Shown here one piece after another: positions 32,963-49,308 of a DNA stretch of 64,000 bases. Source of the DNA: Anaerolineaceae bacterium (GTDB taxonomy: Bacteria > Chloroflexota > Anaerolineae > Anaerolineales > Anaerolineaceae); assembly GCA_030653365.1 (NCBI GenBank), contig JAURZL010000015.1, forward strand, positions 1-64,000. Reading direction: 5' to 3'. The stretch's first letter is position 1, and each line of letters begins with the position of its first letter. A model generated the notes under the pieces. That model was not told the origin of the DNA. It saw only the letters and a list, made by a program, of their open reading frames with translations, and searched no databases. A program made the translations under genes and the position numbers.

Positions 32963-33885
32963 TGACTCGGTATGTGGTAACTGGTGCAAGTGGTTTACTT
33001 GGTCTCAATTTATCATTACAAATTTTTGCTAATGACGAGGTTCTTGGAATTGCCAATACAAGCCCTTTGAAAGGACTGCCTTTCGAAATTCAGGAAATGG
33101 ACCTTGTGAGCGAAAATTTTGAAGAAGGCATACTTGAAACTTACAAGCCAGATGTAGTTATCCATTGCGCAGCCATTGCGAATTTAGAAGATTGTGAAAA
33201 GAATTCAGAACTTGCTCACCAGACCAATACGATCGTTCCTGGTAAGATCGCTAATCAATGCAGGAAAAGAGGTATGAAATTTGTTCATATCTCTACAGAC
33301 GCAGTCTTTGATGGTAAATCCGGTAATTATTCTGAAGATGATCCTACCAATCCACTCTCAGTTTATGCAAAAACTAAAAGAGCTGGGGAAGAAAATGTTC
33401 AAAACCAGAATTCTGATGCCATCATAGCTAGGGTAAATTTCTTTGGTTGGAGTCTCAGCGGGACGCGAAGTTTGGGAGAATTTTTTGTTAATAATTTACT
33501 TTCGAAAAATCCCATTAATGGATTTGTTGATGTAAATTTTTGCCCATTGTATGTATCACATTTATCAGATCTATTATTGGCGATGGTCAGAGCTGATCTA
33601 TCAGGTATTTATCACGTTGTCAGTTCAGATCATATGTCAAAATACGAATTTGGATGTGCAATTGCTGATAAATTTGGATTAGATCACACGCTCATCAATC
33701 CAATTTTTGTTACGAAAAGTAATTTATTGGCTGAAAGATCATTAAATTTAACGCTTTCAACGGAAAAGTTATCAACAGACCTACATCTAACCATACCAAC
33801 CCCTCTAGATGGAATAAGTCAATTTTATAAAGATTATCAACGTGGTTATGCTCAAAACATCAGAAATTATTCAGTAGAGGATTAG
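32962..33885 (+). CDS. RmlD-like NAD(P)-dependent sugar reductase
   Basis: A 307-residue enzyme of the RmlD family. The ATG at 32962 shares one base with the previous TAA and has AGGA at 32950-32953; longer starts inside pseB are unlikely. Motifs are YVVTGASGLLGLNL, HCAAIANLEDCE, HISTDAVFDGKSG and YAKTKRAGEE. RmlD reduces dTDP-4-keto-L-rhamnose; relatives reduce UDP-4-keto-HexNAc to UDP-L-RhaNAc-type products after a PseB-like dehydratase, which matches this position. No dTDP-rhamnose genes (rmlABC) are seen nearby. Confidence 0.8.
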   Translation: MTRYVVTGASGLLGLNLSLQIFANDEVLGIANTSPLKGLPFEIQEMDLVSENFEEGILETYKPDVVIHCAAIANLEDCEKNSELAHQTNTIVPGKIANQCRKRGMKFVHISTDAVFDGKSGNYSEDDPTNPLSVYAKTKRAGEENVQNQNSDAIIARVNFFGWSLSGTRSLGEFFVNNLLSKNPINGFVDVNFCPLYVSHLSDLLLAMVRADLSGIYHVVSSDHMSKYEFGCAIADKFGLDHTLINPIFVTKSNLLAERSLNLTLSTEKLSTDLHLTIPTPLDGISQFYKDYQRGYAQNIRNYSVED

Positions 33886-33913: not shown

Positions 33914-34978
33914 ATGGAACTAAAAATTGGAAATCGAATGATTGGTGATGCACATCCAACATATTTTATTGCTGATATTGCAGCAAATCATGATGGAAGT
34001 TTGGAACGAGCGAAGTATTTAATTCGACTTGCCAAAAAAGCTGGTGCGGACGCGGCAAAATTCCAGAATTTTCAGGCGTCAAAAATTGTCTCGGATTATG
34101 GTTTCAAAAATCTGGGTGATCAACAATCACATCAATCCCAATGGAAAAAATCAGTTTTTGAAGTTTATCATGATGCATCCGTTCCATTTGACTGGTCCGA
34201 AGAACTAAAAAAAGTTTGTGATGAAGTAGAGATCGACTATTTTTCTTCCCCATATGATTTTGAGGCGATAGATTATCTGGATCAATATATGCCAGCTTAT
34301 AAAGTGGGATCGGGTGAAATCGATTGGATCGAGGCATTGGAAAGAATGGCTTCTAAAGGAAAGCCAGTGATTTTAGCAACTGGGGCATCCAATATTGGTG
34401 AAGTTCAACGAGCAGTTCATGCAATTCTGAAGATTAATCCTCAATTGGTTTTGATGCAATGCAATACGAATTACACTGGTAGCCTGGAAAACTTGAAATT
34501 TGTAAACTTAAATGTATTGAAAACTTATGAAACGCTTTTTCCGCAAGTCGTTTTGGGATTATCAGATCATACTCCAGGTCATGCAACCGTATTAGGTGCT
34601 GTTACATTGGGGGCACGTGTTATTGAAAAGCATTTCACAGATGACACCAAAAGAGCAGGACCGGATCATCCATTCTCAATGGATCCCGAAGCCTGGGCTG
34701 AAATGGTGTTGCGTACACGTGAATTGGAAAATGCTTTAGGAAGTACGGATAAAATAATTGTTGAAAACGAGATAGATACATCTGTAATTCAGCGACGATG
34801 CGTTCGGGCGGCAAGAGAATTGAAGGCTGGTGAAGTTGTAACGAGAGATATGCTTGATGTTCTCAGACCTGCCACCATCGGTGCGGTTAAACCCAACGAG
34901 ATAAACGCTGTAATTGGAACGAAAGTTAATCTTGATATTCCAGCAGGAAAAGAGATTCGTTGGACTGATGTTGTATAA
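33914..34978 (+). CDS. NeuB-family nonulosonic acid synthase with C-terminal SAF domain
   Basis: A 354-residue enzyme that condenses phosphoenolpyruvate with a hexosamine-type sugar to make a nine-carbon acid (sialic, legionaminic or pseudaminic). Residues about 10-270 are the TIM barrel: FIADIAANHDGSLERAKYLI, AKFQNFQASKIV, YKVGSGEIDW, MQCNTNYTG, GLSDHTPGH and EKHFTDD. Residues about 295-354 are the SAF domain that closes the active site of the partner chain (RRCVRAARELKAGEVVTRD; TIGAVKPNEI). Two genes later lies an SpsF-type cytidylyltransferase, which recalls the spsE-spsF pair of Bacillus spore-coat glycans. The precise sugar is undetermined. Confidence 0.9.
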   Translation: MELKIGNRMIGDAHPTYFIADIAANHDGSLERAKYLIRLAKKAGADAAKFQNFQASKIVSDYGFKNLGDQQSHQSQWKKSVFEVYHDASVPFDWSEELKKVCDEVEIDYFSSPYDFEAIDYLDQYMPAYKVGSGEIDWIEALERMASKGKPVILATGASNIGEVQRAVHAILKINPQLVLMQCNTNYTGSLENLKFVNLNVLKTYETLFPQVVLGLSDHTPGHATVLGAVTLGARVIEKHFTDDTKRAGPDHPFSMDPEAWAEMVLRTRELENALGSTDKIIVENEIDTSVIQRRCVRAARELKAGEVVTRDMLDVLRPATIGAVKPNEINAVIGTKVNLDIPAGKEIRWTDVV

Positions 34979-34992
34979 GGTGAAGATGGAAA

Positions 34993-36144
34993 ATGGATTT
35001 TCCCAAACGTGTTTTATATTTCAGTCGTAATTTTTCAACACACGATATTCGTTTTTTGACATCCTTGGCAGATACTGAATATGATGTTTATTTCTTACGG
35101 CTGGAAAATCAGAAATCCAACCTGCGGGTGGATGTTTTGCCATCAAAAATCAAAGTTTTACCACCTCTGAACAAAAACCAAGAATTTACATTTTTGAACA
35201 TTCCAGGAAATGCAATAGATTTACGAAACATAATCAAGCAAATCACTCCTGATATTATTCATGCTGGTCCAATCCAATCCTGTGGTTTTCTCGCTGCGTT
35301 GGCAGGCTTTTCCCCCCTGGTTACCATGTCCTGGGGTTCTGATATCCTGGTCGATAGTGAGAGAAATATCTTTTTAAAATGGATTACGAAATATACATTA
35401 AAGAAAACGGCAATCTTAATCGGGGATTGTGAAGCTGTTAAAAACAAAGTTATTCAATTTAATTTTTCTGAGAACAGAATTGTTTTATTTCCCTGGGGAA
35501 TTGATTTACAAAAATATCAACCAGGAAAAAACGAAGAATATAGAAAAAAATTAGGGTGGCTTGATAAGTTCGTTTTACTCTCATTAAGGTCGTGGGAGAG
35601 AATCTATGGGGTGGATATTGTCGTAAATGGATTCATTGAAGCAATAAAATCAGAACCAGATCTTAGACTTATCCTTTTAGGAAATGGTTCACAGACAGAA
35701 ATAATTAAATCAATCATAAAAGAAGCTGGATTGTCCGATCGGGTATTCTTTGGTGGTGTTGTTGATCAAAATGATCTGCCTGGTTATTACCAGGCATCCG
35801 ATCTTTATATCAGTGCATCTTATAGTGATGGTTCCTCTGTTTCATTAATGGAAGCATTGGCTTGTGGTATTCCTGTGCTGGTTTCTGATATCCCAGGGAA
35901 CAAAGAATGGATTGAAACTGATAAAAATGGCTGGATGTTCCAATCCGGCGACTATTTAAGTCTGGCTAACTCAATCATTAAAATATGTAAAAATAAAAAA
36001 GATCTTCCGTCTATAAGTCTCAAAGCGAGAAAAACAGCAGAAAGAAAAGCTAACTGGAACGAAAACTTTCAAAAAAACCAGCATGCTTATGAATTGGCTT
36101 TGAACCTTAATCATAATAGAGAGGAAATTTCAGGTTTGACCTGA
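34993..36144 (+). CDS. Family 4 glycosyltransferase
   Basis: A 383-residue GT-B enzyme. C-terminal marks are LSLRSWERIYGVDIVVNGFI, RLILLGNGSQTEI, YISASYSDGSSVSLMEALAC and GIPVLVSDIPG; the E-x7-E pair (SLMEALACGIP) is complete. It has no signal or membrane helix. It begins 14 nt after the NeuB gene. The sugar it moves is unknown. Confidence 0.92.
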   Translation: MDFPKRVLYFSRNFSTHDIRFLTSLADTEYDVYFLRLENQKSNLRVDVLPSKIKVLPPLNKNQEFTFLNIPGNAIDLRNIIKQITPDIIHAGPIQSCGFLAALAGFSPLVTMSWGSDILVDSERNIFLKWITKYTLKKTAILIGDCEAVKNKVIQFNFSENRIVLFPWGIDLQKYQPGKNEEYRKKLGWLDKFVLLSLRSWERIYGVDIVVNGFIEAIKSEPDLRLILLGNGSQTEIIKSIIKEAGLSDRVFFGGVVDQNDLPGYYQASDLYISASYSDGSSVSLMEALACGIPVLVSDIPGNKEWIETDKNGWMFQSGDYLSLANSIIKICKNKKDLPSISLKARKTAERKANWNENFQKNQHAYELALNLNHNREEISGLT

Positions 36145-36154
36145 TAAACTTTGA

Positions 36155-36937
36155 ATGAATCAGAATAATAAAATTGTTGCCATAATACAGGCTCGAATGA
36201 CATCTAGTCGATTGCCAGGAAAAGTGCTAAAGGAAATAGCAGGTATTCCAATGATTGCACATGTAATCAATCGTGTTTCTAAAGCAAGATTTGTTGATCA
36301 AGTCATTATTGCCACCACGGACGACCCGGCAGATGATTTAATTGAAAAATTTTGTAACGAGAGCGGTTACACTTGTTTTCGTGGGCATCCTTTTGATGTT
36401 TTAGATCGTTATTACCGGGCGGCATTAAAATTTCAAGCGGATACTATCGTTAGAATTACTGCAGATTGTCCTTTGATGGATGCAGATTTGATTGATCAAA
36501 TCATCCTATCGTTTTTGGAGATGGAGGTTGACTTTGCTGCAAATCGATTACCACCACCCTGGAAACGATCCTTCCCAATCGGACTGGATATTGAAGTTGT
36601 TCGTTTTGAAGCATTGGAAAAAGCCTGGCAAAACGCTGTTTTACCTTTTGAACGAGAACATGTATTACCATATCTTTATGACCAGCCATATCGGTTTAAG
36701 ATATTATTGATGCACCACGAACCAGACTATGGAATCAAACGATGGACGGTTGATACTCCCCAGGATTTAGATTTGGTAGAAAGAATTTTTAATCATTTTT
36801 CACCTGAAATTAATTTTTCATGGTTGAAAGTAATAAAACTCTTTGAGGAAAATCCTGAATTGGAAACGATCAACACTGAAATATCAGCAAAAAATGTGAA
36901 TGATGTTGATGGTCGCTTTGTGGACCAAAAGAGATAA
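36155..36937 (+). CDS. SpsF/CMP-KDO synthetase-like cytidylyltransferase
   Basis: A 260-residue nucleotidyltransferase. The N-terminal loop IIQARMTSSRLPGKVL is the SpsF-type signature; ADTIVRITADCPLMDADLID is the metal and sugar site. It probably joins CMP to the acid made by the SAF-containing NeuB (33914). It is one of three cytidylyltransferases in the operon. It ends 5 nt before the next gene. Confidence 0.88.
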   Translation: MNQNNKIVAIIQARMTSSRLPGKVLKEIAGIPMIAHVINRVSKARFVDQVIIATTDDPADDLIEKFCNESGYTCFRGHPFDVLDRYYRAALKFQADTIVRITADCPLMDADLIDQIILSFLEMEVDFAANRLPPPWKRSFPIGLDIEVVRFEALEKAWQNAVLPFEREHVLPYLYDQPYRFKILLMHHEPDYGIKRWTVDTPQDLDLVERIFNHFSPEINFSWLKVIKLFEENPELETINTEISAKNVNDVDGRFVDQKR

Positions 36938-36942
36938 AGATA

Positions 36943-37884
36943 ATGGAACCTGAATTAACGATCTTTACAGCACCCAAACCTTTTAGCGATCCGCATATAT
37001 CTACGATTCAATATAATGCAATTCGGTCATGGAAAGAACTGGAACCTGAAGTCTCGATCGTGCTAATTGGTAATGAAGCTGGTGTTGAATCAGTAGCAAA
37101 AGAACTTGGTGTTCATTTTTTTTCTGATGTAAAGAGAAATTTGCATGGAACGCCATTGATTTCCTCAATTTTCGAAATTGGAAGAAGCCTGAATTCAAGT
37201 CCATTGTTGGCATATGTTAATGCGGATATCATTCTCTTTTCTGATTTTTTGAATGTATCCAAGCAAACATTGAATCAAATTAACAAATTTCTTTTAGTTG
37301 GCCAGCGCTGGGATATGGATATTCTAAATAAAATCCATTTGTCTCCAGAATGGGATAAAAACTTAAAACAGGATTGCAAAGAGGCTGGCAGATTACACCC
37401 AAGAGGGGGGAGTGATTATTTTATCTATCCCAGAACATGTTTTACCTGGCTGCCAGATTTCGCCGTTGGCAGAGCTGGGTGGGATAATTGGATGTTTTAT
37501 CAGGCACGAAAGAATAAATGGGCATGTGTTGACGCATCCAAATCAATTCAAATCATCCATCAAAACCATGATTATTCACATTTGCCAGGTGGACAATCAC
37601 ACTATCGCCTTCCGGAGACAAACGAAAATGTTCGTCTTGCTGGTGGTCGCCGAACGATTTTTACTTTAATGGATGTTAATTATGAATTCAACCAGGGAAA
37701 AGTACAAAAAACGCCTTTGAACTGGAGGAAATTCTGGAGAGAAGTAGAAATATTTCCCTTAATATCATTAAAATCTAAATGGATGGCAATATTATTTTTT
37801 TCAATTTTCCATCCCAAAAAAGCATATCTTGAGTTCAGATCATCCGACCAAAAGAACAAAAATGATAGGAATAATTATGCGTAA
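36943..37884 (+). CDS. Glycosyltransferase-like protein of unclear family
   Basis: A 313-residue cytoplasmic protein. It starts like a GT-A fold (LTIFTAPKPFSDPHISTIQY), has VNADIILFSD where a DxD motif would be expected (Asp kept, first Asp replaced by Asn) and RAGWDNWMFYQARK later, a place where GT2 proteins bind the acceptor. It lacks the VDDGS core, so a distant GT-A family is likely. The end is basic and moderately hydrophobic and may touch the membrane. It overlaps the next gene by 8 nt. Confidence 0.55.
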   Translation: MEPELTIFTAPKPFSDPHISTIQYNAIRSWKELEPEVSIVLIGNEAGVESVAKELGVHFFSDVKRNLHGTPLISSIFEIGRSLNSSPLLAYVNADIILFSDFLNVSKQTLNQINKFLLVGQRWDMDILNKIHLSPEWDKNLKQDCKEAGRLHPRGGSDYFIYPRTCFTWLPDFAVGRAGWDNWMFYQARKNKWACVDASKSIQIIHQNHDYSHLPGGQSHYRLPETNENVRLAGGRRTIFTLMDVNYEFNQGKVQKTPLNWRKFWREVEIFPLISLKSKWMAILFFSIFHPKKAYLEFRSSDQKNKNDRNNYA

Positions 37885-38827
37885 AGGTCAAAATCCTGCA
37901 AAATTTGTCAATACTGTGGCTAAACCTGCCGAAATCACGGTAGCTGTTTTAAGTTACATCCCATACCTGAGTGGGTTTTATGCAGATGCCTTGAAAGTCC
38001 TGGATGCCTGCCTGAATAGTATAAAAAAAGAAACAAAGCTTGAATATGATTTGTTAGTATTTGATAATGGAAGTTGTGATGAAGTTCAAAATTATTTGCT
38101 TAATGAACAAAGATCTGAAAAGATCCAATTTTTAATTCTTTCTGACAAAAATCTCGGAAAAGGTGGAGCCTGGAATCTAATTTTCAAAGCGGCACCGGGG
38201 AATATTATCGCTTATGCTGACAGTGATGTTTTGTTTCATGAAGATTGGTTGTCCAAGAGTAAAGAAATCCTTGATCTCTTTCCAAATGTTGGAATGGTTA
38301 CTTCCAGACCCTTTATAACCAAGAAGGAGTTTATTACCAGTACTGTTAAATGGGCGGCAGAAACAGAGGAAGTGAAAATTGAGAGTGGTAAATTTGTTCC
38401 CTGGGAAATTTTTGCTGAATTTAATCTCAGTCTGGGACAAAATATTGAGGATATTAAAAAAGATTACGATCTTAATGATATAGAAAAAATTATGTATAAA
38501 GATAAGACTGTCTATGCAGGTGCATCTCATTGGCAATTCCTGACCACAAGATCCATTATCAATCAATTTTTACCTTTTGATATGGACAGACCAATGGGGC
38601 AGGTGAAGCAATTGGATCAACGCATGAATGATGCAGGCTATTTAAGGTTAATGACCCCTGAAGCGCTGGCTGACAATATGAGCAATAGTCTTGAAAAATT
38701 AGGGATCCAAAAAGCTAACGAAAATGAAAAACGAACGAAGACAAATCGCCTTATTGATTTTCCATTGCTAAAACGGTTTTTATTATTTATTCATCACAGA
38801 ATTTTCATTGCATACTATGATCGATGA
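37877..38827 (+). CDS. Family 2 glycosyltransferase
   Basis: A 316-residue GT-A enzyme. The ATG at 37877 is chosen since AGGA (37867-37870) lies 6 nt before it; earlier in-frame starts fall deeper inside the previous gene. Motifs are VAVLSYIPYLSGFYADAL, VFDNGSCDEVQNYLL, NLGKGGAWNLIFKA and AYADSDVLFHEDW (DxD). The C-terminal 100 residues are less typical. Donor and acceptor are unknown. Confidence 0.85.
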   Translation: MRKGQNPAKFVNTVAKPAEITVAVLSYIPYLSGFYADALKVLDACLNSIKKETKLEYDLLVFDNGSCDEVQNYLLNEQRSEKIQFLILSDKNLGKGGAWNLIFKAAPGNIIAYADSDVLFHEDWLSKSKEILDLFPNVGMVTSRPFITKKEFITSTVKWAAETEEVKIESGKFVPWEIFAEFNLSLGQNIEDIKKDYDLNDIEKIMYKDKTVYAGASHWQFLTTRSIINQFLPFDMDRPMGQVKQLDQRMNDAGYLRLMTPEALADNMSNSLEKLGIQKANENEKRTKTNRLIDFPLLKRFLLFIHHRIFIAYYDR

Positions 38828-38847
38828 AAAGGATTTGGAGAAATTGA

Positions 38848-40302
38848 ATGGGTGTAAAAACTATTTTTATCTCAGCGGATCATGGATTGGCAATTGTTTA
38901 TTTTTTACAAACAGATGTTGTCAAAACACTCCTGTCAAAAGGAGTGGAAATCATCTTCTTGACCGATGATGCATTATTGGATCAAATAGAAAAAAGATTT
39001 GGACAACCAGGGATTAAGTTTGAAGGCTTAAGGACACACAAAGCCAGAAAATATAGTGAATCAGAGAAACCAACCGTTCAATATTGGCTTCATCATTTGC
39101 GTCGATTTGGATCCTCTAAAAACATAAACACAGCTGCTTTGGATAGCCAAATCCCACAGGTTGAATTTGAGGCAAAGGGAAAAAGGCGTTTGATATTACC
39201 TTTGATCAGATTCAGTATTATTTTGATGCGTAATTTTCGGTTCGTGAGAAATTTTATATATAAGCAACAATTGAAATTCACGCCAGAAATATATACAGAT
39301 TTATTCAATAAATACAAACCTGCCTTGGTGGTAGCGAGCTCGCCTGGTTGGCGCTACGATCGATACTTATTACGAGAAGCTGCAAACCACGGTATTCCGA
39401 CTGCTGCAGTTATTGTGGGTTGGGATAACCCCAGCAGCTATAGTATTTCCGGAGCTCCGATAGATTGGATCAGTTGCTGGTCAGAGATTCAAAAAGAGGA
39501 ATTGGTAGATGGGTCAGATTGGAATCCCCAACAGATAAACGTTGGAGGTATCCCAACCTATGATGGTTATTATAAAAAATTATGGCTAATGTCGAAAGAT
39601 GATTATTATGTTTTGCATCACCTGGATGTAAATCGAAAATTAATTTCCTATGCGTGTAGTTTTGTCACCTTTTCCCCAAATATAGAAAATATCAGGACTC
39701 TTGTGGATCTTATTGAAAATAACAAGTTGGATCAACCTGCACAATTATTGATTCGATTACATCCAAATCATTTCTTGGATGATCCATATTTCAAAGGCGA
39801 ACAGGAATCTATTCGAAAATTAGCATTGGAGAACAAATATATCCATATGGTTGAGCCTGTACCCTTAGGAGGGGAGTTGGGTTATTATTCGGGGGAAGAC
39901 ATGCCGGAAAAAACATCGATGATGGCTTATTCGGATGTGTTTACGACTGTCTATTCAACGATGGTTGTGGAAGCTGCTATTCATAATAGACCGATTGTCA
40001 GTATTTGTATTGACGTGCCTGGTGGTTGGAATGATCCACATAAATATTCCCTTTCCCTTAAAGAAATTAGTGAATGGCCAACCCACCAAAGATTTCGGGA
40101 AGCAGAAGCCGGGCAGGTTGCTTTTGATAAAGGGGCATTAAAAACTGCACTTAACCGAGCTTTGAATCAGAGTAATTATCAAGAAGATAATCGAAAGAAA
40201 TTTATTGAAAATGAAATAACTTTTACTGATGCTAGTTCGGGAATTCATGTTGCAGATTTCTTGTTTTCAAAAATTGGGAAACATTATCGGAAGGGAGAAT
40301 AA
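38848..40302 (+). CDS. GT-B-like capsule-biosynthesis protein
   Basis: A 484-residue protein with N-terminal KTIFISADHGLAIVYFLQTD and VEIIFLTDDALLD, then VVASSPGWRYDRYLLREAAN and the late motif set LLIRLHPNHFLDD, MMAYSDVFTTVYSTMVVEAA and NRPIVSI. This matches the CDP-glycerol/KpsS-like GT-B layout seen in the proteins at 29455 and 44308. It is probably a transferase, but no substrate can be named. It starts 20 nt after the previous gene and ends 2 nt before the next. Confidence 0.6.
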   Translation: MGVKTIFISADHGLAIVYFLQTDVVKTLLSKGVEIIFLTDDALLDQIEKRFGQPGIKFEGLRTHKARKYSESEKPTVQYWLHHLRRFGSSKNINTAALDSQIPQVEFEAKGKRRLILPLIRFSIILMRNFRFVRNFIYKQQLKFTPEIYTDLFNKYKPALVVASSPGWRYDRYLLREAANHGIPTAAVIVGWDNPSSYSISGAPIDWISCWSEIQKEELVDGSDWNPQQINVGGIPTYDGYYKKLWLMSKDDYYVLHHLDVNRKLISYACSFVTFSPNIENIRTLVDLIENNKLDQPAQLLIRLHPNHFLDDPYFKGEQESIRKLALENKYIHMVEPVPLGGELGYYSGEDMPEKTSMMAYSDVFTTVYSTMVVEAAIHNRPIVSICIDVPGGWNDPHKYSLSLKEISEWPTHQRFREAEAGQVAFDKGALKTALNRALNQSNYQEDNRKKFIENEITFTDASSGIHVADFLFSKIGKHYRKGE

Positions 40303-40304
40303 CC

Positions 40305-41288
40305 ATGCGTTTTTTAATTGCTGGGTTTGGTTCAATAGGTCGCAGACATTTCAGGAATTTAATAACTTTAGGCTATGATGATATTGTTCTCTATCGTTCA
40401 AATAAAAGCACCCTGGATACCGATGAAATAAAGAATTTCGTGGTTGAAACTGATTTGGAAAAAGCATTGGCACATAAACCTGATGTTGTCATAATATCTA
40501 ATCCTACTGCTTTACATCTTGATGTCGCCATCCCCGCTGGGTTACTGGGTTGCCATCTTTTTTTTGAAAAACCGATTTCTGATTCCCTTGAAAGAATTCC
40601 AGAATTAAGGAAAGCCTTGGAAATTGGTGGTGGCAAAGCAATGACCGGGTTCCAATATCGTTTTCATCCCGGATTGCAGCAAGTGAAGAAATGGATTGAA
40701 GACGGTACTATTGGAAATGTAGTATCTGCTCGGGCACATTGGGGTGAGTATCAACCCGGATGGCATCCCTGGGAAGACCATCGCAATAGTTATTCTGCAA
40801 GAAAAGACCTGGGTGGTGGAGTAATTCTTACGCTCTGTCATCCGATAGACTATTTCCGCTGGATGTTTGGTGAGATTCAATCCGTGTGGAGTGCCTATGA
40901 CAACATTCAAAGTTTACAGATTGACACAGAAAGTGTAGCGGATATTGGTCTGTTATTTGATGATGTAATCGGTCATGTTCACCTCAATTACATACAACGT
41001 CCAGGCAAGCATGTGATAGAAATCATTGGTGATTCAGGTACAATAACCTGGGATAATAAAGATGGTGTAGCCAGATATTATTCAGTAAAAGAAGAACAAT
41101 GGCTGGAATACATTCCTCCATTGGACTTTGAAAGAAATACATTATTTATCGATGAAATGAAGAATTTTATTGACTATATATCAGACAAATCCGAACCGAT
41201 GTGTACATTGGAGGATGGAATCAAAATACAAGAAATTGTTTCCGCCATTTATTTAAGTCAAGCAGAAAAAAGAAGGATCGATTTATAA
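40305..41288 (+). CDS. Gfo/Idh/MocA-family sugar oxidoreductase
   Basis: A 327-residue NAD(P) enzyme. The dinucleotide loop is IAGFGSIGRRHFRNL, and FFEKPISDS holds the family EKP motif with the catalytic Lys. Residues 120-320 form the alpha/beta substrate domain (GGGVILTLCHPIDYFRWMFG). Such enzymes oxidise or reduce hydroxyls of nucleotide sugars. With the following SDR, NeuA-HAD and NeuB it forms a likely sub-cluster for one nonulosonic acid; similar Gfo/Idh and SDR genes accompany legionaminic acid loci (PtmA-like). The exact step is unknown. Confidence 0.85.
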   Translation: MRFLIAGFGSIGRRHFRNLITLGYDDIVLYRSNKSTLDTDEIKNFVVETDLEKALAHKPDVVIISNPTALHLDVAIPAGLLGCHLFFEKPISDSLERIPELRKALEIGGGKAMTGFQYRFHPGLQQVKKWIEDGTIGNVVSARAHWGEYQPGWHPWEDHRNSYSARKDLGGGVILTLCHPIDYFRWMFGEIQSVWSAYDNIQSLQIDTESVADIGLLFDDVIGHVHLNYIQRPGKHVIEIIGDSGTITWDNKDGVARYYSVKEEQWLEYIPPLDFERNTLFIDEMKNFIDYISDKSEPMCTLEDGIKIQEIVSAIYLSQAEKRRIDL

Positions 41289-41363
41289 AATTTTTGAAAA
41301 AATTCTTTCGTAATTGAAGAATAATCTTGAATCACAGATGATTTATTTTTAAAGGAACTGACC

Positions 41364-42185
41364 ATGGGAAATATTTTCGATAAATTTGACATGAAAAACC
41401 AGGCTGTTATTGTGACGGGTGGGGCTGGACTATTAGGACGTCAATTCGCAAAAACCCTTGCTGAAGCTGGCGCTGGAGTTGTTGTTGCGGATTTATTTTC
41501 AGAGAAAGCAGAACAGGTTGCCGTTGAATTACGAAATTCTGGTTTCCAGGCAATTGGTGTACAGGTTGACGTAACTGATAAAAATTCAGTTGAATCTATG
41601 GTTGCCAGAACAATTAAAGAATTTGGAATTTTGAGTGCAATTATCAATAGTGCTGCGATGGATCCCAAATTTGATAGTGAACATGCAGGTCAGCACAATA
41701 ACAATTTTGAGGATTATCCGGTAGAGATGTTTCGGTCAGCGCTGGATGTAAATTTGACAGGAATGTTTTTGTGTTCACAGGCTGCTGTCAAAGCTATGTT
41801 AAAAAATAAAAAAGGATCGATCGTTAATATTTGCTCAACGTATGGTCTGGTCGGGCCTGATCAGCGCTTATATGAACGGGAAGGACAGCCAAAACAGTAT
41901 AAACCGGTATTTTATACTGTCTCAAAAGCTGGTGTCCTGGGTTTGACCCGTTATATGGCTACCTATTATATGGGAACTCAAATTCGGGTGAATGCGTTAA
42001 CGCCGGGTGGGGTGTACAATCAACATGATGAAATCTTCACCGAACGTTATTCGGCTAAAACGGTTTTAGGTCGTATGGCTGACCAGGATGAGATGAATGG
42101 GGCATGTCTGTTTCTTGCCTCTGATGCGTCCTCTTATATGACCGGAGCAAATTTGGTGGTTGATGGTGGATGGACAGCATGGTAA
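41364..42185 (+). CDS. Short-chain dehydrogenase/reductase
   Basis: A 273-residue classical SDR. It has VTGGAGLLGRQFAKT, NSAAMDP (in place of NNAG), the catalytic Ser in IVNICSTYGLVGPDQ, YTVSKAGVLGLTRY (Tyr and Lys) and the C-terminal YMTGANLVVDGGWTAW. PtmA-type SDRs of this build lie in legionaminic-acid loci, and the neighbours here are NeuA and NeuB, so action on a sugar precursor is likely. It is preceded by a 75-nt gap, the largest in the central part of the operon; no promoter is clear in it. Confidence 0.88.
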   Translation: MGNIFDKFDMKNQAVIVTGGAGLLGRQFAKTLAEAGAGVVVADLFSEKAEQVAVELRNSGFQAIGVQVDVTDKNSVESMVARTIKEFGILSAIINSAAMDPKFDSEHAGQHNNNFEDYPVEMFRSALDVNLTGMFLCSQAAVKAMLKNKKGSIVNICSTYGLVGPDQRLYEREGQPKQYKPVFYTVSKAGVLGLTRYMATYYMGTQIRVNALTPGGVYNQHDEIFTERYSAKTVLGRMADQDEMNGACLFLASDASSYMTGANLVVDGGWTAW

Positions 42186-43408
42186 AAACAAAACCTGAAA
42201 TTTTGGCAGTTATTCCTGCCAGAGGTGGATCAAAGGGCATACCAAGAAAAAATATAAAGAATTTTGCTGGTTATCCATTGATTGCGTATAGTATACAGGC
42301 AGCTTTGAATTCCAAATACGTAACCCGGACCATCGTTTCCACAGATGACGAGGAAATCGCGAATGTTTCCAAGGCTTTTGGGGCAGAAATTCCATTTCTG
42401 CGGCCCGCAGAATTTGCTCAAGATACCACACTGGATTTCCCGGTTTTCGAAAATCTTCTCAAAACTTTACAAGAATCAGAAAATTATTTTCCTGATCTGG
42501 TTATTCAATTACGGCCAACTTCTCCCATTCGCCCCATAGGACTCTTAGACGATGCAATTGAAATACTTCTCAATAATCCCGTAATTGATTCTGTCAGGGG
42601 GGTTGTTCCATCCGGACAGAATCCTTACAAGATGTGGAAGATTGATAAAGATAGTGGTCTTATGACAGGGTTATTGAATGTCGAAGGGATCGAAGAGCCT
42701 TATAATTCTGCTCGCCAAGCATTACCGGACACTTATTGGCAAACCGGCCATATTGATGTGATTCGCACAAATGTTATCCTTGAAAAAAGATCGATGTCCG
42801 GCGAAAAAATCAAACCAATTCTGATCAATCCGGATTATACGGTTGATATTGATAAACCTTCCGACTGGCAAAGGTCCGAGTGGTTGGTCTGGTATGGTGG
42901 GCTGGATATGGTTGTGCCAGGGAATACAAGAAGAGCATTACCAGATGAAGTTGAACTGGTTGTTTTTGATTTTGATGGGGTAATGACAGATGATCGAGTT
43001 TATGTGAACCAGGACGGGATTGAGATGGTCGCTGCCAACCGCCGCGATGGAATGGGTGTTACTCTGTTGCATAAAGCCGGCATAAAAATGATAATTCTTT
43101 CATCCGAAAAAAATCCTGTGGTACAGGCACGCGCGAAAAAGTTAAATTTACCTGTTATTCAAGGTGTTGACGAAAAATCGTCTGTTCTTCATCAATATTT
43201 AGAAGAGAACAGAATTGACCATAAGAAAGTAATTTTTGTTGGAAATGATATTAATGACATCTCTTGTTTCTCTATGGTTGGCTGTGCAGTGGTTGTAGCA
43301 GATGCTCATCCTGTGGCATTAAGACAGGCGGATGTAGTCCTGCAACACAAAGGTGGTCGGGGTGCAGTTCGAGAAGTTTGTGATTTATTGTTACAATCCA
43401 AAAGATAA
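42179..43408 (+). CDS. Bifunctional acylneuraminate cytidylyltransferase fused to a KdsC-type HAD phosphatase
   Basis: A 409-residue fusion. The ATG at 42179 has GGTGGA at 42165-42170; ATG at 42170 is too close to it. Residues about 5-235 are the CMP-sialic acid synthetase-type domain: ILAVIPARGGSKGIPRKNIK, VSTDDEEIA, QLRPTSPIRP and IDKPSDW. Residues about 255-405 are a HAD domain with an intact catalytic set: DFDGVMTD (Asp264, Asp266), ILSSEK and GNDINDISCF (from Gly355). Vertebrate CMAS has the same order, but its HAD part is inactive; here the residues look complete. The phosphatase would suit a route through a nonulosonate 9-phosphate. It overlaps the SDR stop by 7 nt. Confidence 0.9.
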   Translation: MVKTKPEILAVIPARGGSKGIPRKNIKNFAGYPLIAYSIQAALNSKYVTRTIVSTDDEEIANVSKAFGAEIPFLRPAEFAQDTTLDFPVFENLLKTLQESENYFPDLVIQLRPTSPIRPIGLLDDAIEILLNNPVIDSVRGVVPSGQNPYKMWKIDKDSGLMTGLLNVEGIEEPYNSARQALPDTYWQTGHIDVIRTNVILEKRSMSGEKIKPILINPDYTVDIDKPSDWQRSEWLVWYGGLDMVVPGNTRRALPDEVELVVFDFDGVMTDDRVYVNQDGIEMVAANRRDGMGVTLLHKAGIKMIILSSEKNPVVQARAKKLNLPVIQGVDEKSSVLHQYLEENRIDHKKVIFVGNDINDISCFSMVGCAVVVADAHPVALRQADVVLQHKGGRGAVREVCDLLLQSKR

Positions 43409-43429
43409 TTAATGGCGTAAGGAGTAAAA

Positions 43430-44308
43430 ATGGCAAAAGAAATTCAGATTGATAAAAAGATGGTTGGTGCAGGAAATCCGGTCTATATTATAGGAGAAAT
43501 TGGCATCAATCATAATGGTGACATTAATATTGCTAAGAAATTAATCAGGGAAGCTTATTTGGCTGGTTTGGATGCTGTTAAATTTCAAAAGCGCACTCCT
43601 GAAATTTGTGTACCAAAAGAACAACAATCTCAAATGCGGGATACACCCTGGGGATATATCAGCTATTTGGATTATCGATACAAAGTAGAATTTAATGAAC
43701 AGGACTATCGGGAAATTGATAATTTATGTGAAGAATTAGGAATGACCTGGTTTGTTTCCGTCTGGGATGAGCCATCAGTTGATTTTATGGAACAGTTTTC
43801 TCCTGCCTGTTACAAAGTTCCTTCTGCATCGATGACTGATTTACCGCTATTAAATAAATTACGGGCAACTGGAAAACCAATCATTTTATCGACGGGAATG
43901 TCCACGATGGATCAGATTCGTAAGGCGATCCATGAGATTGGAAGTGAAGATTTGGTCATCACCCATACAACCAGTGCTTATCCATGCCCACCGGATCAAC
44001 TTAATTTACGAATGATTGAGACATTACAAAAAGAATTTGATTGTCCGATTGGATATTCTGGTCACGAAGTTGGTCTGGTTCCATCCGCTGTCGCTGTTGC
44101 GTTAGGAGCCTGTCTGGTAGAACGTCACATAACGCTTGATCGCGCAATGTGGGGATCTGATCAGGCTGCGTCTGTTGAACCACAAGGAATGGAGAAACTG
44201 GTCAAATACATCAGAGTAACCGAACAGGCTCTGGGGGATGGCGTTAAGAAAGTATATGATAGTGAAAAATCATCCTTACAGAAATTGCGCAGGGTTACCT
44301 CCTTCTAA
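43430..44308 (+). CDS. NeuB-family nonulosonic acid synthase without SAF domain
   Basis: A 292-residue TIM-barrel enzyme: YIIGEIGINHNGDINIAKKL, AVKFQKRTPEICVPKEQQ, YKVPSASMTDLPLL, GYSGHEVGL and ERHITLDRAMWGSDQAAS. The chain stops where the SAF domain would begin (LRRVTSF), so it is about 60 residues shorter than the paralogue at 33914. It directly follows the NeuA-HAD fusion and probably makes the acid, possibly as a 9-phosphate, that this fusion then dephosphorylates and activates. How it closes its active site without SAF is open. Confidence 0.9.
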   Translation: MAKEIQIDKKMVGAGNPVYIIGEIGINHNGDINIAKKLIREAYLAGLDAVKFQKRTPEICVPKEQQSQMRDTPWGYISYLDYRYKVEFNEQDYREIDNLCEELGMTWFVSVWDEPSVDFMEQFSPACYKVPSASMTDLPLLNKLRATGKPIILSTGMSTMDQIRKAIHEIGSEDLVITHTTSAYPCPPDQLNLRMIETLQKEFDCPIGYSGHEVGLVPSAVAVALGACLVERHITLDRAMWGSDQAASVEPQGMEKLVKYIRVTEQALGDGVKKVYDSEKSSLQKLRRVTSF

Positions 44309-45915
44309 TGATTCGAACGATTAAGAAAATTAAATCTGGAGTTCGCCAACGCTGGTTGCATCACTCAAATGATCTCCGATTAGCGAAACTTGCAGGTGGA
44401 ATAAAAAATAATTCCAAAGCTGCCAATAATGCACCGGTAATATTTATGGGTGTCTCCACTCGCTTGCAGGGAATGAGTCTGAATGCTGGTTTTGCATTGA
44501 TAACAAAATGGAGTCTTCAACTTCAAGGAATTCCGGTCATTCAATTTGTTTGTGATTCCGGGATGGATCATTGTATGTTAGGAAGTACGCTCAATCATCC
44601 ATTAGACAAACCTCCCTGCGCAATTTGCATAAGACAATCCAAAAATATGTTTAAACATTCAGAGGTGGTCTGGTTCAAAAATTCACCTTCCTCGGAATTG
44701 AAAGATCAAATTGAAAATTTTTCAACTCAGCAATTATCAGCCTACGAATTTGATGGAATACCATTAGGTGCGTTGGTCTTGCCTGCGATTCGATGGGTTC
44801 TACGGTGTTATCATTTACCAGAAATTGAAGAAAACAAAATTCTCTACAGATCCTATATTCTTGCAGCTTACAATATCGCGCAAAAGTTTGAGAAGTTAAT
44901 TGAAATTGAAAATCCTCAAAAAGTAATTGTATTTAATGGAATGTCTTTTCCTGAAGCAACGGTAAAGTGGGTCGCACAAAAAAATAATATTCCTGTTGTT
45001 ACTCATGAAGTAGGATTGCAGCCATTTACCGCATTCTTCACCTACGATCAAGCAACTGCTTACCCGATTGAAGTACCTGAACAATTTGAATTAAGTGTGA
45101 GTCAAAATAAAACCTTGGATCAATATCTTGAACAGAGATTTCAAGGAAACTTTACAATGGCTGGAGTGCGTTTTTGGCCAACCATTAAAACTATGAGTGA
45201 TTCTTTCAATAACCTTTCATCCAGTTTTGCTCAAATTGTTCCAATCTTTACCAATGTAATATTTGATACTAGCCAATCACATGCCAACGTCCTCTTTGAT
45301 CATATGTTTGATTGGCTTGATCATGTTCTTACGATTATTCAGAGTCATCCCGAAACTTTATTTGTGATTCGGGCACATCCGGATGAAGCCAGACCAGGTA
45401 AATCGAGCCGGGAAAGTGTGGCAGAATGGGCTAAATTAAATAGAGTTGATACGCTTGAAAATGTTGTTTTATTTGATTCAAACGAATATTTTAGTTCATA
45501 TGAATTAATCCAAAAATCCAAATTTGTGATGATTTACAATTCAACAATAGGATTGGAAGCGACATTATTAGGAATTCCAGTTTTATGTGCTGGTAAATCC
45601 CGGTTTACTCAAATAGAAACAGTTTACTATCCAAAAAGCCAAATTGATTATATCCAAACTTTTGAGAATTTCTTAAAGACAGAAAAGATAGAAACACCTG
45701 AACTTTTCATAAAAAACACAAGAAAATTTTTATACACACAATTATATCGGGTATCATTGCCATTTGACCGGTTTTTGGAAGAGGACAGGGTTTGGAAAGG
45801 ATATGTTCAACTAAAAGAATTTAATTGGCAGGATCTGTTACCTGAGAATTCCAAAACAATGAAAATTATCACCGAAGGGATATTGAAAGACTCTGCTTTC
45901 GTACTGGAAATATGA
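44308..45915 (+). CDS. Large GT-B-like capsule-biosynthesis protein
   Basis: A 535-residue protein whose ATG shares one base with the previous stop (TAATG). A cluster of Cys occurs near 92-110 (CMLGSTLNHPLDKPPCAIC), which may bind metal. The late part has VIRAHPDEARPGKSSRESV and KFVMIYNSTIGLEATLLGIP, the same capsule-type GT-B motif as at 29455 and 38848. It follows the synthase/cytidylyltransferase pair and could transfer the activated acid, but this is only inferred from position. Confidence 0.55.
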   Translation: MIRTIKKIKSGVRQRWLHHSNDLRLAKLAGGIKNNSKAANNAPVIFMGVSTRLQGMSLNAGFALITKWSLQLQGIPVIQFVCDSGMDHCMLGSTLNHPLDKPPCAICIRQSKNMFKHSEVVWFKNSPSSELKDQIENFSTQQLSAYEFDGIPLGALVLPAIRWVLRCYHLPEIEENKILYRSYILAAYNIAQKFEKLIEIENPQKVIVFNGMSFPEATVKWVAQKNNIPVVTHEVGLQPFTAFFTYDQATAYPIEVPEQFELSVSQNKTLDQYLEQRFQGNFTMAGVRFWPTIKTMSDSFNNLSSSFAQIVPIFTNVIFDTSQSHANVLFDHMFDWLDHVLTIIQSHPETLFVIRAHPDEARPGKSSRESVAEWAKLNRVDTLENVVLFDSNEYFSSYELIQKSKFVMIYNSTIGLEATLLGIPVLCAGKSRFTQIETVYYPKSQIDYIQTFENFLKTEKIETPELFIKNTRKFLYTQLYRVSLPFDRFLEEDRVWKGYVQLKEFNWQDLLPENSKTMKIITEGILKDSAFVLEI

Positions 45916-46868
45916 GCCCAACCTGTTCCATCATTATCCGTGCATTTAATGAAGAAAACCATATTTCCCGATTACTGGATGGTATTCGATATCAGAACAT
46001 TCAGGATGTACAATTAATTCTGGTTGATTCGGGATCCTCAGATAATACCATTCGAATTGCTCAACAATATGGGGTAGAGATTGTAAATATCCAACCACAA
46101 GAGTTCACTTTTGGGAGATCACTTAATCTTGGGCTTTCTAGTGCTCTCGCAGAATTTGTTGTCTTTGCCAGCGCACATGTGTATCCAGTGTATCCAGATT
46201 GGCTGGAACGGCTTCTCGAACCCTTTGAGGATGAGAAAGTAGCAATCAGTTATGGGAAACAACGTGGTATGGAGACGACTCAGTTTTCGGAACATAGAAT
46301 TTTCGAGCACTGGTTTCCTGACGTCTCGACCAGTAATCAGGGTCATCCATTCTGTAATAATGCCAATGCAGCCATCCGAAAAAAACTTTGGGAACAAAAT
46401 GCCTATAATGAAACCTTACCTGGTTTGGAAGATTTAGCCTGGGCACGCTGGGCTCATGAACAAGGATATCGGATAGCTTATGTAGCAGAAGCAGAAATCA
46501 TTCATGTACATAATGAATCCTGGCAAGGAATTTCAAACCGATATCGCCGTGAAGGAATGGCGTTTAAAACAATCTATCCTCAGGAACAGTTTGGTATTTT
46601 GGATCTCGTTACAGCGTTTATTTCTAATGTAAAAAATGACCTGATGATTGCCAGAAGAGATAAAATCATTAATAAGGTCTGGAAAGATATTTTGGGTTTT
46701 CGGTGGAACCAATTTTATGGTACTTATTTAGGTTATCGCCAATCAGGACCTTTGACTTGGCAATTAAAACAGACTTTTTATTATCCAAGGAATGGTCAAC
46801 AGATTAAGAAGAACGATCGTGGAATAAAACCTATTCATTACCAGGTTTTGGATGGAAAGGATGAATGA
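45912..46868 (+). CDS. Family 2 glycosyltransferase
   Basis: A 318-residue GT-A enzyme overlapping the previous stop (ATGA). Motifs are SIIIRAFNEENHISRLLDGI, LVDSGSSDNTIRIAQ, FVVFASAHVYPVYPDW (an Ala-His variant at the DxD place, as in some bacterial GT2) and LPGLEDLAWARWAHEQGY. The last 80 residues are basic with short hydrophobic parts. Sugar unknown. Confidence 0.85.
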   Translation: MSPTCSIIIRAFNEENHISRLLDGIRYQNIQDVQLILVDSGSSDNTIRIAQQYGVEIVNIQPQEFTFGRSLNLGLSSALAEFVVFASAHVYPVYPDWLERLLEPFEDEKVAISYGKQRGMETTQFSEHRIFEHWFPDVSTSNQGHPFCNNANAAIRKKLWEQNAYNETLPGLEDLAWARWAHEQGYRIAYVAEAEIIHVHNESWQGISNRYRREGMAFKTIYPQEQFGILDLVTAFISNVKNDLMIARRDKIINKVWKDILGFRWNQFYGTYLGYRQSGPLTWQLKQTFYYPRNGQQIKKNDRGIKPIHYQVLDGKDE

Positions 46869-47557
46869 TGAATAAAAATTTGAAAATTGCTGCTCTTGTT
46901 CCAATGCGTCACTATTCAGTAAGGGTGCCTGAGAAGAACTTCAGGCTAATTGCTGGAAAACCCTTATACCATTACATCCTGACGAGTTTGCAGGCAGTGA
47001 AGGAAATCGATCAAATTGTTGTTGATACCGATAGTGAAAAAATTGTTGAAGGAATAAAAATTGATTTTCCTTCCATTAAAATTATCAACCGACCTGAACA
47101 TTTGCGAGCAGATACAATCCCGATGAATGAAATCCTGTTACATGATACGGATATTATTAAAGCAGATCTATATCTACAGACTCACAGCACAAATCCATTA
47201 TTAAAGCCTGAGACTATATCAAATGCCATTAATCTATTATTTGACAACATGCCGGCATATGATTCTCTTTTTTCTGTTACAAAACTTCTAACTCGATTAT
47301 GGGATCAATTAACCAGACCCATCAATCATAATCCATCCATATTGTTAAGAACCCAGGATCTTCCTCCAATTTATGAAGAAAACTCCTGTATTTATATTTT
47401 CCAACGAAAAACATTAGTTGAACACAGGAATCGAATTGGTGAAATGCCATTGATGTTTGAGGTTGATCGCTCAGAAGCTTTTGACATCGATGAGGAACTT
47501 GATTTTCTATTAGCAGATTTGATGATTTCACATCAGTCGAAAAGCGATTTGGTATAA
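46865..47557 (+). CDS. Acylneuraminate cytidylyltransferase (NeuA-like)
   Basis: A 230-residue CMP-sugar synthetase. It begins AALVPMRHYSVRVPEKNFRL (a changed form of the usual PARGGSKRIPxKN loop: Met-Arg-His-Tyr-Ser replaces Ala-Arg-Gly-Gly-Ser), then VVDTDSEKI, LQTHSTNPLLKPETI and FDIDEELDFLLAD. The changed loop means that nucleotide choice and activity need testing. It is the third cytidylyltransferase of the operon. ATGA overlap with the previous gene; the next codon is also ATG (46868). Confidence 0.8.
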   Translation: MMNKNLKIAALVPMRHYSVRVPEKNFRLIAGKPLYHYILTSLQAVKEIDQIVVDTDSEKIVEGIKIDFPSIKIINRPEHLRADTIPMNEILLHDTDIIKADLYLQTHSTNPLLKPETISNAINLLFDNMPAYDSLFSVTKLLTRLWDQLTRPINHNPSILLRTQDLPPIYEENSCIYIFQRKTLVEHRNRIGEMPLMFEVDRSEAFDIDEELDFLLADLMISHQSKSDLV

Positions 47558-48570: not shown

Positions 48571-49308
48571 ATGAAAAAAAATCCGAGAGTTATGCTAATT
48601 ACGGGGGCAGCTGGTGGTGTCGGCAGGGCAACTGTCCAACTGTTTCACGAGAAAGATTGGATCGTCATCGGCGTAGACCGAAACGATTATGGAGAACCTT
48701 TTCCATCCAATGGTCTTTTCATTCAGGCTGATATTTCAGATCCTTCCAATCTGGAAAAGATTTACCAGGCAGTAATGAATTTTACTGATAAATTAGATGC
48801 TGTTATCAATAATGCAGCATTACAAGTTGTTAAACCCCTTCTCGAGACATCAGTGGAAGAGTGGGATGCAGTAATGGCATCCAATCTACGGTCAGTGTTT
48901 TTAGGAGCAAAGCTTGCCTATCCCTTATTAACGAATCGAGGAGGGGGAGCGATTGTAAATATCTCATCGGTTCATGCGATTGCTACGTCTTCCGGAGTGA
49001 GTAGTTATGCAGCCAGCAAAGGTGGATTGTTGGCTTTAACAAGGTCGATGGCAATTGAATTTGCAAATGATAACATCAGGGTTAACGCAATATTGCCTGG
49101 TGCTGTTGATACACCGATGCTTTCCGCTCATCTCGATCAAATTCGGCTCGAGAATTTAGCAAAACGGACTGTGAATGGCCGAATTGGTTTGCCATCTGAA
49201 TTGGCACATGCGATTTATTTTCTGGCAGATGAAGAACAATCATCATTCATGACTGGTCAATCCATCGTAGTTGATGGTGGGGCAACAGCGAAACTCAGCA
49301 CGGAATAA
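48571..49308 (+). CDS. Short-chain dehydrogenase/reductase
   Basis: A 245-residue SDR. The ATG at 48571 has AGAGGCAGGA just before it; a longer frame from 48538 would overlap the preceding stop. Motifs are LITGAAGGVGRATV, NNAALQVV, IVNISSVHAIATSSG, YAASKGGLLALTR and FMTGQSIVVDGGA. It ends 4 nt before the DUF115 gene. The substrate is unknown; together with 47589 it may form a two-step oxidation pair. Confidence 0.88.
   Translation: MKKNPRVMLITGAAGGVGRATVQLFHEKDWIVIGVDRNDYGEPFPSNGLFIQADISDPSNLEKIYQAVMNFTDKLDAVINNAALQVVKPLLETSVEEWDAVMASNLRSVFLGAKLAYPLLTNRGGGAIVNISSVHAIATSSGVSSYAASKGGLLALTRSMAIEFANDNIRVNAILPGAVDTPMLSAHLDQIRLENLAKRTVNGRIGLPSELAHAIYFLADEEQSSFMTGQSIVVDGGATAKLSTE

Follow-up and report, generated by a model that had tools for sequence, protein, structure and literature searches.

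Two NeuB-type synthases of different kinds and three cytidylyltransferases in a conserved polysaccharide cluster of Anaerolineaceae

Introduction

Of the described pathways closest to the system treated here, the Kdn-9-phosphate pathway (Kdn, 2-keto-3-deoxynononic acid) of Bacteroides thetaiotaomicron and Prymnesium parvum runs from a NeuB-family synthase through a 9-phosphatase to a cytidine monophosphate (CMP) sugar synthetase and needs no NeuC, and a sugar-6-phosphate route also serves N-acetylneuraminic acid (Neu5Ac) in humans (PMC6200933). The present work concerns a 64,000-nucleotide stretch of DNA from an Anaerolineaceae bacterium (assembly GCA_030653365.1, contig JAURZL010000015.1, positions 1 to 64,000 of the forward strand; this whole stretch is called the window), which holds a polysaccharide cluster with two NeuB-type synthases, NeuB1 and NeuB2, and three cytidylyltransferases, SpsF, NeuA3, and a fusion with a haloacid dehalogenase-type (HAD) phosphatase, NeuA-HAD. 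Compared with the Kdn-9-phosphate pathway, the window has phosphatase and CMP synthetase fused, a synthase that lacks the SAF domain, a short-chain dehydrogenase/reductase (SDR1) and a Gfo/Idh oxidoreductase alongside, and a substrate that is putative.

Other described systems resemble single parts of the locus. A frame of Nonomuraea gerenzanensis carries the same three domains as NeuA-HAD and NeuB2 but in one polypeptide, and it is linked, by analogy only, to the Kdn teichulosonic acid found in the walls of Streptomyces (PMC7831098, PMC11481543). The pseudaminic pathway (PseB-C-H-G-I-F) shares PseB and a synthase whose C4–C6 region resembles that of PseI, whereas the window has an RmlD-like gene in place of any PseC or PseG over cut-off, a NeuB1 outside the PseI clade, and an SpsF-type activator. 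For fusaminic acid, PMC7371886 mentions a trideoxy counterpart; the acid is likened here by product rather than by biosynthetic genes, as the 9-deoxy mono-amino nonulosonic acid expected from PseB, a 4-reductase, and a NeuB, although the C2-site residue of NeuB1 speaks against direct use of a PseB-type sugar. NeuA3, finally, shares a basic residue in its P-loop with KdsB, the CMP-Kdo synthetase (Kdo, 3-deoxy-D-manno-octulosonic acid), while its fold is closer to NeuA. Taken as a whole, the locus is a variant form of CMP-ulosonate pathways already described.

This locus likely makes two different nonulosonic acids, because the two synthases fall into separate clades and carry different active-site residues. 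With middling confidence, the locus as a whole is read as building and exporting one surface polysaccharide that bears at least two, and probably three, CMP-activated acids reaching it by three routes, of which I infer the substrates, the products, and the shared glycan. In one route, PseB and the RmlD-like reductase would convert uridine diphosphate N-acetylglucosamine (UDP-GlcNAc) to a 6-deoxy amino sugar, whose free form NeuB1 would join to phosphoenolpyruvate (PEP); the resulting 9-deoxy mono-amino nonulosonic acid would be activated by SpsF. In another, the sugar that NeuB2 would join to PEP is a hexose 6-phosphate, in the simplest case mannose 6-phosphate, which would give Kdn-9-phosphate; the HAD half of NeuA-HAD would strip the phosphate, and the NeuA half would form the CMP sugar, while SDR1 and the Gfo/Idh enzyme may modify the product. 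In the remaining route, NeuA3 would act with a 2-hydroxyacid dehydrogenase (HADH) and a second short-chain dehydrogenase/reductase (SDR2) to activate a 2-keto acid that is not of NeuB origin.

Two synthases of different kinds

An earlier note, drawn from the letters of positions 33914 to 47557, had named two NeuB synthases (at 33914 with a SAF domain and at 43430 without) and three cytidylyltransferases, and the domain searches bear this out: PF03102 matched both synthases and nothing else in the genome, SAF matched NeuB1 alone of the two, and CTP_transf_3 (PF02348, cut-off 22.6 bits) matched SpsF, NeuA-HAD, and NeuA3, with the HAD half of the fusion being of the KdsC type. PF02348 had two more matches elsewhere in the genome, both weak (32 and 25.7 bits). 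The proposed start of NeuA-HAD at 42179 is an in-frame ATG, but the longer frame begins at 42170. The pairs suggested by position, NeuB1 with SpsF and NeuA-HAD with NeuB2, recur in relatives.

In a tree of 40 rows, NeuB1 and a homologue from Maritalea formed a clade of their own (support 100/100), separate both from NeuB2 and from PseI (clade support 100/99); the branches of SpsF, of the Enterobacter and Leptospira NeuBs, and of NmNeuB were long in the trees, and their placements are unsure. At the active-site positions 25/134/214/314 of NmNeuB, NeuB1 has D/E/D/R and NeuB2 has E/S/G/none, with position 134 being variable (S, A or L in NeuB2 homologues, E or D in NeuB1 homologues). The two synthases thus differ as had been supposed, and the shared subfamily with identical active sites that would have spoken against it was not what was found.

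The NeuB2 and NeuA-HAD branch

Related loci were collected by scanning named genome contigs for NeuA3, and the best 80 of 171 were compared with the window proteins by blastp, some genomes being entered twice (e.g. L088 and G243, L076 and G133). In all 46 pairs with a SAF-less NeuB2 the NeuA carries a HAD domain, five of these NeuAs being cut at the contig start and judged by their C-terminal ends (L024, L028, L055, L066, and L080). Four NeuAs of 414–418 amino acids that fell outside the HAD motif pattern (G243, L030, L033, and L088) align with all catalytic residues. In some relatives the NeuA-HAD and SAF-less NeuB pair is replaced by fusions of NeuB, SAF, and AP_endonuc_2, a xylose-isomerase-like TIM (triosephosphate isomerase) barrel, and such a fusion partners every one of the five NeuAs that lack HAD and have a NeuB2-like neighbour (domains checked in all five). 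In L018 there is a sixth NeuA without HAD, with no NeuB downstream of it and a NeuB-like fragment upstream, and one locus (L073) carries two NeuB2-like copies.

The C4–C6 region of NeuB2 carries the motif [ST]P[WF]G..Y..Y[RK], written, like the C4–C6 pattern used below for NeuB1, after the alignment had been viewed, so that both are descriptions and not blind tests. It occurred in 47 of 48 NeuB2 sequences of SAF-less size, the sole one without P[WF]G being a 465-residue frame at a locus edge (L046), and in the Nonomuraea, Methylomagnum, Hymenobacter, and Enterobacter homologues, while it was absent from the SAF-TIM forms (0/5), NeuB1 sequences (0/11), and other references (0/9). Phosphatases accompany several of these homologues: the Nonomuraea protein is a single NeuA-HAD-NeuB frame of 730 amino acids (L120:6672-8864) with 56% identity over NeuB2, in Methylomagnum NeuB2 adjoins a HAD gene and an SDR1 homologue, and in Enterobacter a monophosphatase gene lies beside NeuB; for the Hymenobacter homologue no phosphatase was identified. 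A partner phosphatase together with this motif is a possible marker of phosphate-route NeuBs.

No NanE match was found in the genome. Because NeuB2 has a HAD partner with intact residues (Table 1) and NanE is without a match, a sugar-6-phosphate route of the mannose-6-phosphate/Kdn-9-phosphate type that dispenses with NeuC is favoured for this branch, with Kdn itself as its putative acid. The precursor enzymes that the note had not seen are therefore not simply missing.

Plasmids of Enterobacter and Escherichia coli (L122, L126) carry three genes as a set: a relative of NeuA, a member of the inositol-monophosphatase family, and a 1545-base gene of the NeuB family. This set is apparently another phosphate-route variant.

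The PseB and NeuB1 branch

The note had likewise seen no PseC, PseG, or PseH homologue. This holds for PseC and PseG, neither of which had a match above cut-off in the genome (best scores 350.6 against 423.5, from one of three DegT-family matches that all lie outside the window, and 25.6 against 153.55 bits), but PseB is present at 31958–32962, just outside the range that the note covered, as is the RmlD-like gene between PseB and NeuB1. The window PseB scored only 69.6 bits against the LegB model (cut-off 475). The run PseB-RmlD-NeuB1-GT4-SpsF (GT, glycosyltransferase) was found in all 11 related-genome stretches, which had been picked for containing a SAF-type NeuB. On a Maritalea plasmid, a NeuB1 with 50% identity shares a gene run with a PseB of 57% identity, and no RmlD homologue was found in that run.

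In a published active-site comparison, specificity at C4–C6 maps to positions 70–85 and specificity at C2 to position 132 (PMC7371886). The C4–C6 region of NeuB1 is PseI-like in 11 of 11 sequences, the pattern having been drawn from these same sequences, and at the C2 site, one position further on in the alignment, NeuB1 has Gly as NmNeuB does and not the Phe of PseI. Taken together, these residues suggest a 6-deoxy sugar substrate with a different C2 configuration. Against the PseI model NeuB1 scored 253.9 bits, below the cut-off of 340.25, and NeuB2 scored 211.1. A direct assignment of NeuB1 to pseudaminic acid synthesis was rejected on this score, on the separate clade, and on PseC and PseG falling below cut-off. 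Since PseB and the RmlD-like gene adjoin NeuB1 while PseC and PseG stay below cut-off, a 9-deoxy mono-amino nonulosonic acid is suggested as the simplest product.

A cytidylyltransferase without a synthase partner

The expectation of one synthase per activator fails for NeuA3, which has no NeuB partner. NeuA3 and its relatives form a clade (100/100) in which the conserved pair D207 and D209 is invariant (31/31) and the P-loop residue two past the Ser is R or K in 86 of 86 entries. Its model (predicted local distance difference test, pLDDT, 85.3) has a NeuA fold, with a template modelling (TM) score of 0.82 to Vibrio cholerae NeuA and to the Prymnesium CMP-Kdn synthetase (6ifd, 9t4z) and slightly lower scores to others. 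The loss of a universal substrate Arg, considered as a distinguishing mark, was dropped, as the solved CMP-pseudaminic acid synthetase 9ftb likewise has no Arg just before the Gln (RSQD); T stands in its place in 59 of 86 NeuA3 entries, a count given no weight as the pattern matched elsewhere in some rows.

What accompanies NeuA3 is a dehydrogenase. By gene order, HADH lies downstream in 71 of the 78 entries with room for it, being missing in L031, L037, L043, L044, L060, L090, and L092 (in L043 it is present in the opposite orientation), and SDR2 lies downstream in 64 of 74. The five best of 60 plasmid records, alphaproteobacterial by their taxonomy lines, have the dehydrogenase directly downstream of NeuA3, and NeuB was found in none of the five, the plasmids having been searched and not the chromosomes. 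In the six stretches examined from outside the order Anaerolineales, a dehydrogenase lay within 2.5 kb on the same strand each time.

Seven NeuA3-bearing genomes fall outside the order. Real NeuBs occur in G311 (238 bits) and G552 (289 bits), G360 (98% complete) had no PF03102 match, and G488, G579, G555, and G124 (98, 95, 90, and 90% complete) had a single match each of 21.8–34.5 bits, nominally over the Pfam cut-off. These four matches, and a weak one in the control G200, are 3-deoxy-D-arabino-heptulosonate 7-phosphate (DAHP) synthases that score over the cut-offs of that family. The low PF03102 cut-off of 22.1 bits would score seven of eight genomes as positive, and matches of 35 bits or less were set aside as DAHP synthases (five scanned), which leaves NeuB absent from five of the seven genomes. 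In G360 and G579, NeuA3 is followed directly, or one gene on, by an HpcH/HpaI aldolase and then by a dehydrogenase, SIS, SDR, AroB-like, and Gfo/Idh genes, the AroB-like protein of G360 (L133) scoring over the TIGR04425 cut-off. G579 has a second CTP_transf_3 gene ahead of NeuA3, and Acuticoccus has the order aldolase-NeuA3-dehydrogenase. The clusters L133 and L136, with NeuA3, an HpaI-type aldolase, SIS, AroB-like, and Gfo/Idh genes in genomes without NeuB, read as an acid or cyclitol pathway. Two outside-order genomes have a PF04199 'cyclase' gene immediately ahead of NeuA3 (L132:9376-10020, L135:10471-11151).

Because NeuA3 and the dehydrogenase occur together in genomes and plasmid records without a detected NeuB, the probable substrate of NeuA3 is a 2-keto acid that does not come from any NeuB. 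Of the two or three nine-carbon acids envisaged earlier, two are likely on the strength of clades and active sites, but the third activator pairs with a 2-hydroxyacid dehydrogenase instead of a NeuB; the reservation that cytidylyltransferases might activate non-nonulosonate sugars may hold for this one of the three. It is possible, though less likely than not, that NeuA3 and HADH represent a new class of CMP-ulosonate activation independent of NeuB, in which the 2-keto acid is supplied by a pyruvate-type HpcH/HpaI aldolase or by oxidising a 2-hydroxy acid, may have seven or eight carbons (e.g. heptulosaric acid), and is used in surface glycans of Chloroflexota and alphaproteobacteria, and that in the order this acid is joined with two NeuB-made acids in one polysaccharide. 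CMP-activated glycan acids are not known to have sources other than the known PEP-dependent synthases. If the NeuA3 acid is not made by a NeuB, such acids would extend beyond the products of these synthases, and the annotation acylneuraminate cytidylyltransferase may be wrong for genes that neighbour a hydroxyacid dehydrogenase.

Weighing of the alternatives

Several results weigh against the three-route proposal. For NeuA3, the modelled NeuA rather than KdsB fold fits a nine-carbon acid, the E. coli/Enterobacter branch of its clade adjoins NeuB, and NeuB is present in two of the seven outside-order genomes and in all 23 NeuA3-bearing genomes of the order in the class sample. No HpcH/HpaI aldolase was noticed beside the window NeuA3, the loci of the order not having been scanned for one; draft genomes can miss genes, and the search for synthases was for NeuB and not for KdsA. 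Neither NeuB attains an equivalog cut-off (NeuB/NnaB model, 278.6 and 256.2 bits for the two synthases against 399.65). The C2-site Gly of NeuB1 is of the neuraminic/legionaminic kind, and a sugar derived directly from PseB would need 2-epimerisation, for which no enzyme was identified; nor was a UDP-releasing enzyme, and both points count against the simple 9-deoxy version. The HAD domain of NeuA-HAD scores 99.4 bits, below the Kdn-9-phosphate phosphatase cut-off of 180.

In one alternative, a nonulosonic acid from NeuB1 or NeuB2 would be modified by HADH and SDR2, and NeuA3 would be the dedicated CMP synthetase of the modified acid, which would give three nine-carbon acids from two synthases. 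A special KdsB that serves 8-amino-Kdo is a precedent for such an activator, the NeuA3 model fits CMP-nonulosonate synthetases best, and NeuB was found both in the 23 order genomes and in all 50 genomes searched from those behind the 80 loci (typically as one frame of ~300 and one of ~360–400 amino acids), although these 50 are closest relatives and not a blind sample. The outside-order genomes and plasmid records that keep the dehydrogenase without NeuB argue against it, and this explanation is considered somewhat unlikely. Similarly placed is a reading in which PseB and RmlD make a separate 6-deoxy-N-acetylhexosamine residue of the same glycan that has nothing to do with NeuB1. Routes from PseB-like and RmlD-like enzymes and an epimerase to N-acetyl-L-fucosamine are known, the C2 site of NeuB1 agrees with it, and elsewhere the genome has an Epimerase_2 gene next to a PseB-like one. 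A search of the genome for NeuC with the general Epimerase_2 family model gave this match and one beside a UDP-sugar dehydrogenase-like gene over cut-off, the two being read as FnlC and WecB types, and a third match below it. The PseB-RmlD-NeuB1 order in 11 of 11 stretches, and the nearness of PseB to NeuB1 on the Maritalea plasmid (where RmlD was not found), make it a minority explanation.

It is unlikely that the product of NeuB1 is plain pseudaminic or legionaminic acid and that the aminotransferase, acetyltransferase, and hydrolase come from genes that lie far off or escaped recognition: PseB over cut-off, the PseI-like C4–C6 region, and the three DegT-family matches below the PseC cut-off agree with it, and the NeuB1 score, the clade, the lack of PseC and PseG matches over cut-off, and the RmlD-like gene after PseB in 11 of 11 stretches do not. 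Least probable is that the NeuB2 branch makes ordinary Neu5Ac through N-acetylmannosamine 6-phosphate instead of Kdn. The human pathway cited above shows that a sugar-6-phosphate route can lead there, but without a NanE match in the genome there is no obvious source of that phosphate, and SDR1 is an extra recurrent partner.

The gene cluster and its conservation

The genes lie in a plus-strand polysaccharide cluster that runs from the MarR-type regulator at 25860 to ~53450 and includes an ATP-binding cassette (ABC) exporter and many glycosyltransferases besides PseB, the synthases, and the cytidylyltransferases (Table 1). The draft genome comprises 4.5 Mb in 20 contigs with 6.18% contamination, and the nearest named NeuA3 relatives, 90 and 89% identical, are from Anaerolineaceae/Chloroflexi genomes.

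Table 1. Features of the cluster and related fusions (bit scores against the named models; SDR, GT, HAD, ABC, and HADH as in the text; AF2, AlphaFold2)
Feature	Coordinates	Strand	Evidence
MarR-type winged-helix regulator, cluster head	25860..26348	+	TIGR04176 MarR_EPS 62.7 bits, below cut-off 88; homologue in 8/11 related stretches
GDP-fucose synthase-like SDR	26345..27295	+	named by sequence reading; homologues in related stretches
ABC polysaccharide exporter permease (Wzm-like)	27324..28193	+	named by reading; homologues in related stretches
ABC exporter ATPase (Wzt-like)	28194..29453	+	named by reading; homologues in related stretches
Capsule_synth-like protein	29455..31074	+	PF05159 19.2 bits, just under cut-off 20
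PseB, UDP-GlcNAc 4,6-dehydratase (inverting)	31958..32962	+	TIGR03589 496.7 bits, cut-off 407.75; precedes RmlD-NeuB1 in 11/11 stretches
RmlD-like reductase, candidate 4-keto reductase for PseB product	32959..33885	+	PF04321 185.7 bits; TIGR01214 174.5 bits, below cut-off 224.05
NeuB1, NeuB synthase with SAF	33914..34978	+	PF03102 243.1 bits; PF08666 (SAF) 32.1 bits; own clade 100/100
GT4 glycosyltransferase between NeuB1 and SpsF	34993..36144	+	PF00534 105.1 bits; 11/11 stretches
SpsF-type cytidylyltransferase, positional partner of NeuB1	36155..36937	+	PF02348 119.0 bits; nearest solved sequence 6oew, E 2.1e-40
Gfo/Idh/MocA oxidoreductase	40305..41288	+	PF01408, PF02894; E88, K89, P90 invariant in 21/21 homologues
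SDR1, overlaps NeuA-HAD start	41364..42185	+	PF13561; Y184, K188 invariant in 38/38
NeuA-HAD, cytidylyltransferase fused to KdsC-type phosphatase	42170..43408	+	PF02348 82.1 bits; TIGR01670 114.4 bits, cut-off 106.95; catalytic D267, D269, K336, D360, D363 invariant in 41/41 full-length aligned homologues
NeuB2, SAF-less NeuB synthase, partner of NeuA-HAD	43430..44308	+	PF03102 260.8 bits
Capsule_synth GT-B protein, candidate CMP-ulosonate transferase	44308..45915	+	PF05159 29.0 bits; AF2 model
GT2 glycosyltransferase, overlaps NeuA3	45912..46868	+	PF00535; before NeuA3 in many loci
NeuA3, cytidylyltransferase without NeuB partner	46865..47557	+	PF02348 101.8 bits; NeuA fold; clade 100/100
HADH, D-2-hydroxyacid dehydrogenase	47589..48551	+	PF02826, PF00389; R238, E267 invariant in 69/69
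SDR2, after HADH	48571..49308	+	PF13561; Y146, K150 invariant in 61/61
MptE-like protein, candidate ulosonate transferase	49313..50119	+	PF01973 49.3 bits; weak WaaZ match, 20.8 bits, cut-off 200
NeuB-SAF-TIM fusions of relatives	L051:3605-5527, L064:1224-3122, L071:695-2593, L086:2831-4717, L087:4464-6350		domain matches

Two blocks of this cluster were compared. Block A (exporter, glycosyltransferases, PseB, RmlD, NeuB1, GT4, and SpsF) was colinear across the 11 stretches, and block B (SDR1, NeuA-HAD, NeuB2, the Capsule_synth protein, GT2, NeuA3, HADH, SDR2, the MptE-like protein, and glycosyltransferases) was largely colinear among the best 80 of 171 loci, many of them cut by contig ends and some lacking individual members. 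NeuA3 was found in 24 of 247 genomes of the class, comprising 23 of the 24 listed order genomes, all with strong NeuB matches, and one other. Across the phylum it was found in 49 of 399 genomes, of which 43 are among the 46 listed genomes of the order (the list leaves out 330 genomes that had no match) and six lie outside the order; five of the 49 matches read across one stop and two are partial. The 43 comprise 14 genomes of the family of the window and 29 of a sister family, and the three listed order genomes without NeuA3 belong to three other families. The cluster is thus a conserved lineage trait across two families of the order and not a one-genome oddity. NeuA3 had no match among phages. 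Searches of open-licence papers turned up nothing about nonulosonic acids from this lineage, nor about a gene set combining cytidylyltransferase, hydroxyacid dehydrogenase, and aldolase.

The proteins at 44308 and 49313 are candidate ulosonate transferases. The model of the former (pLDDT 89.6) is a GT-B fold that fits a transferase or an epimerase: it matches UDP-GlcNAc 2-epimerases, and the top TM-scores among the matches listed, to the Kdo-transferase domain of WbbB, were low (0.32/0.42). Four cysteines of this protein (C82, C89, C104, and C107) are invariant across 28 aligned sequences and perhaps form a metal site.

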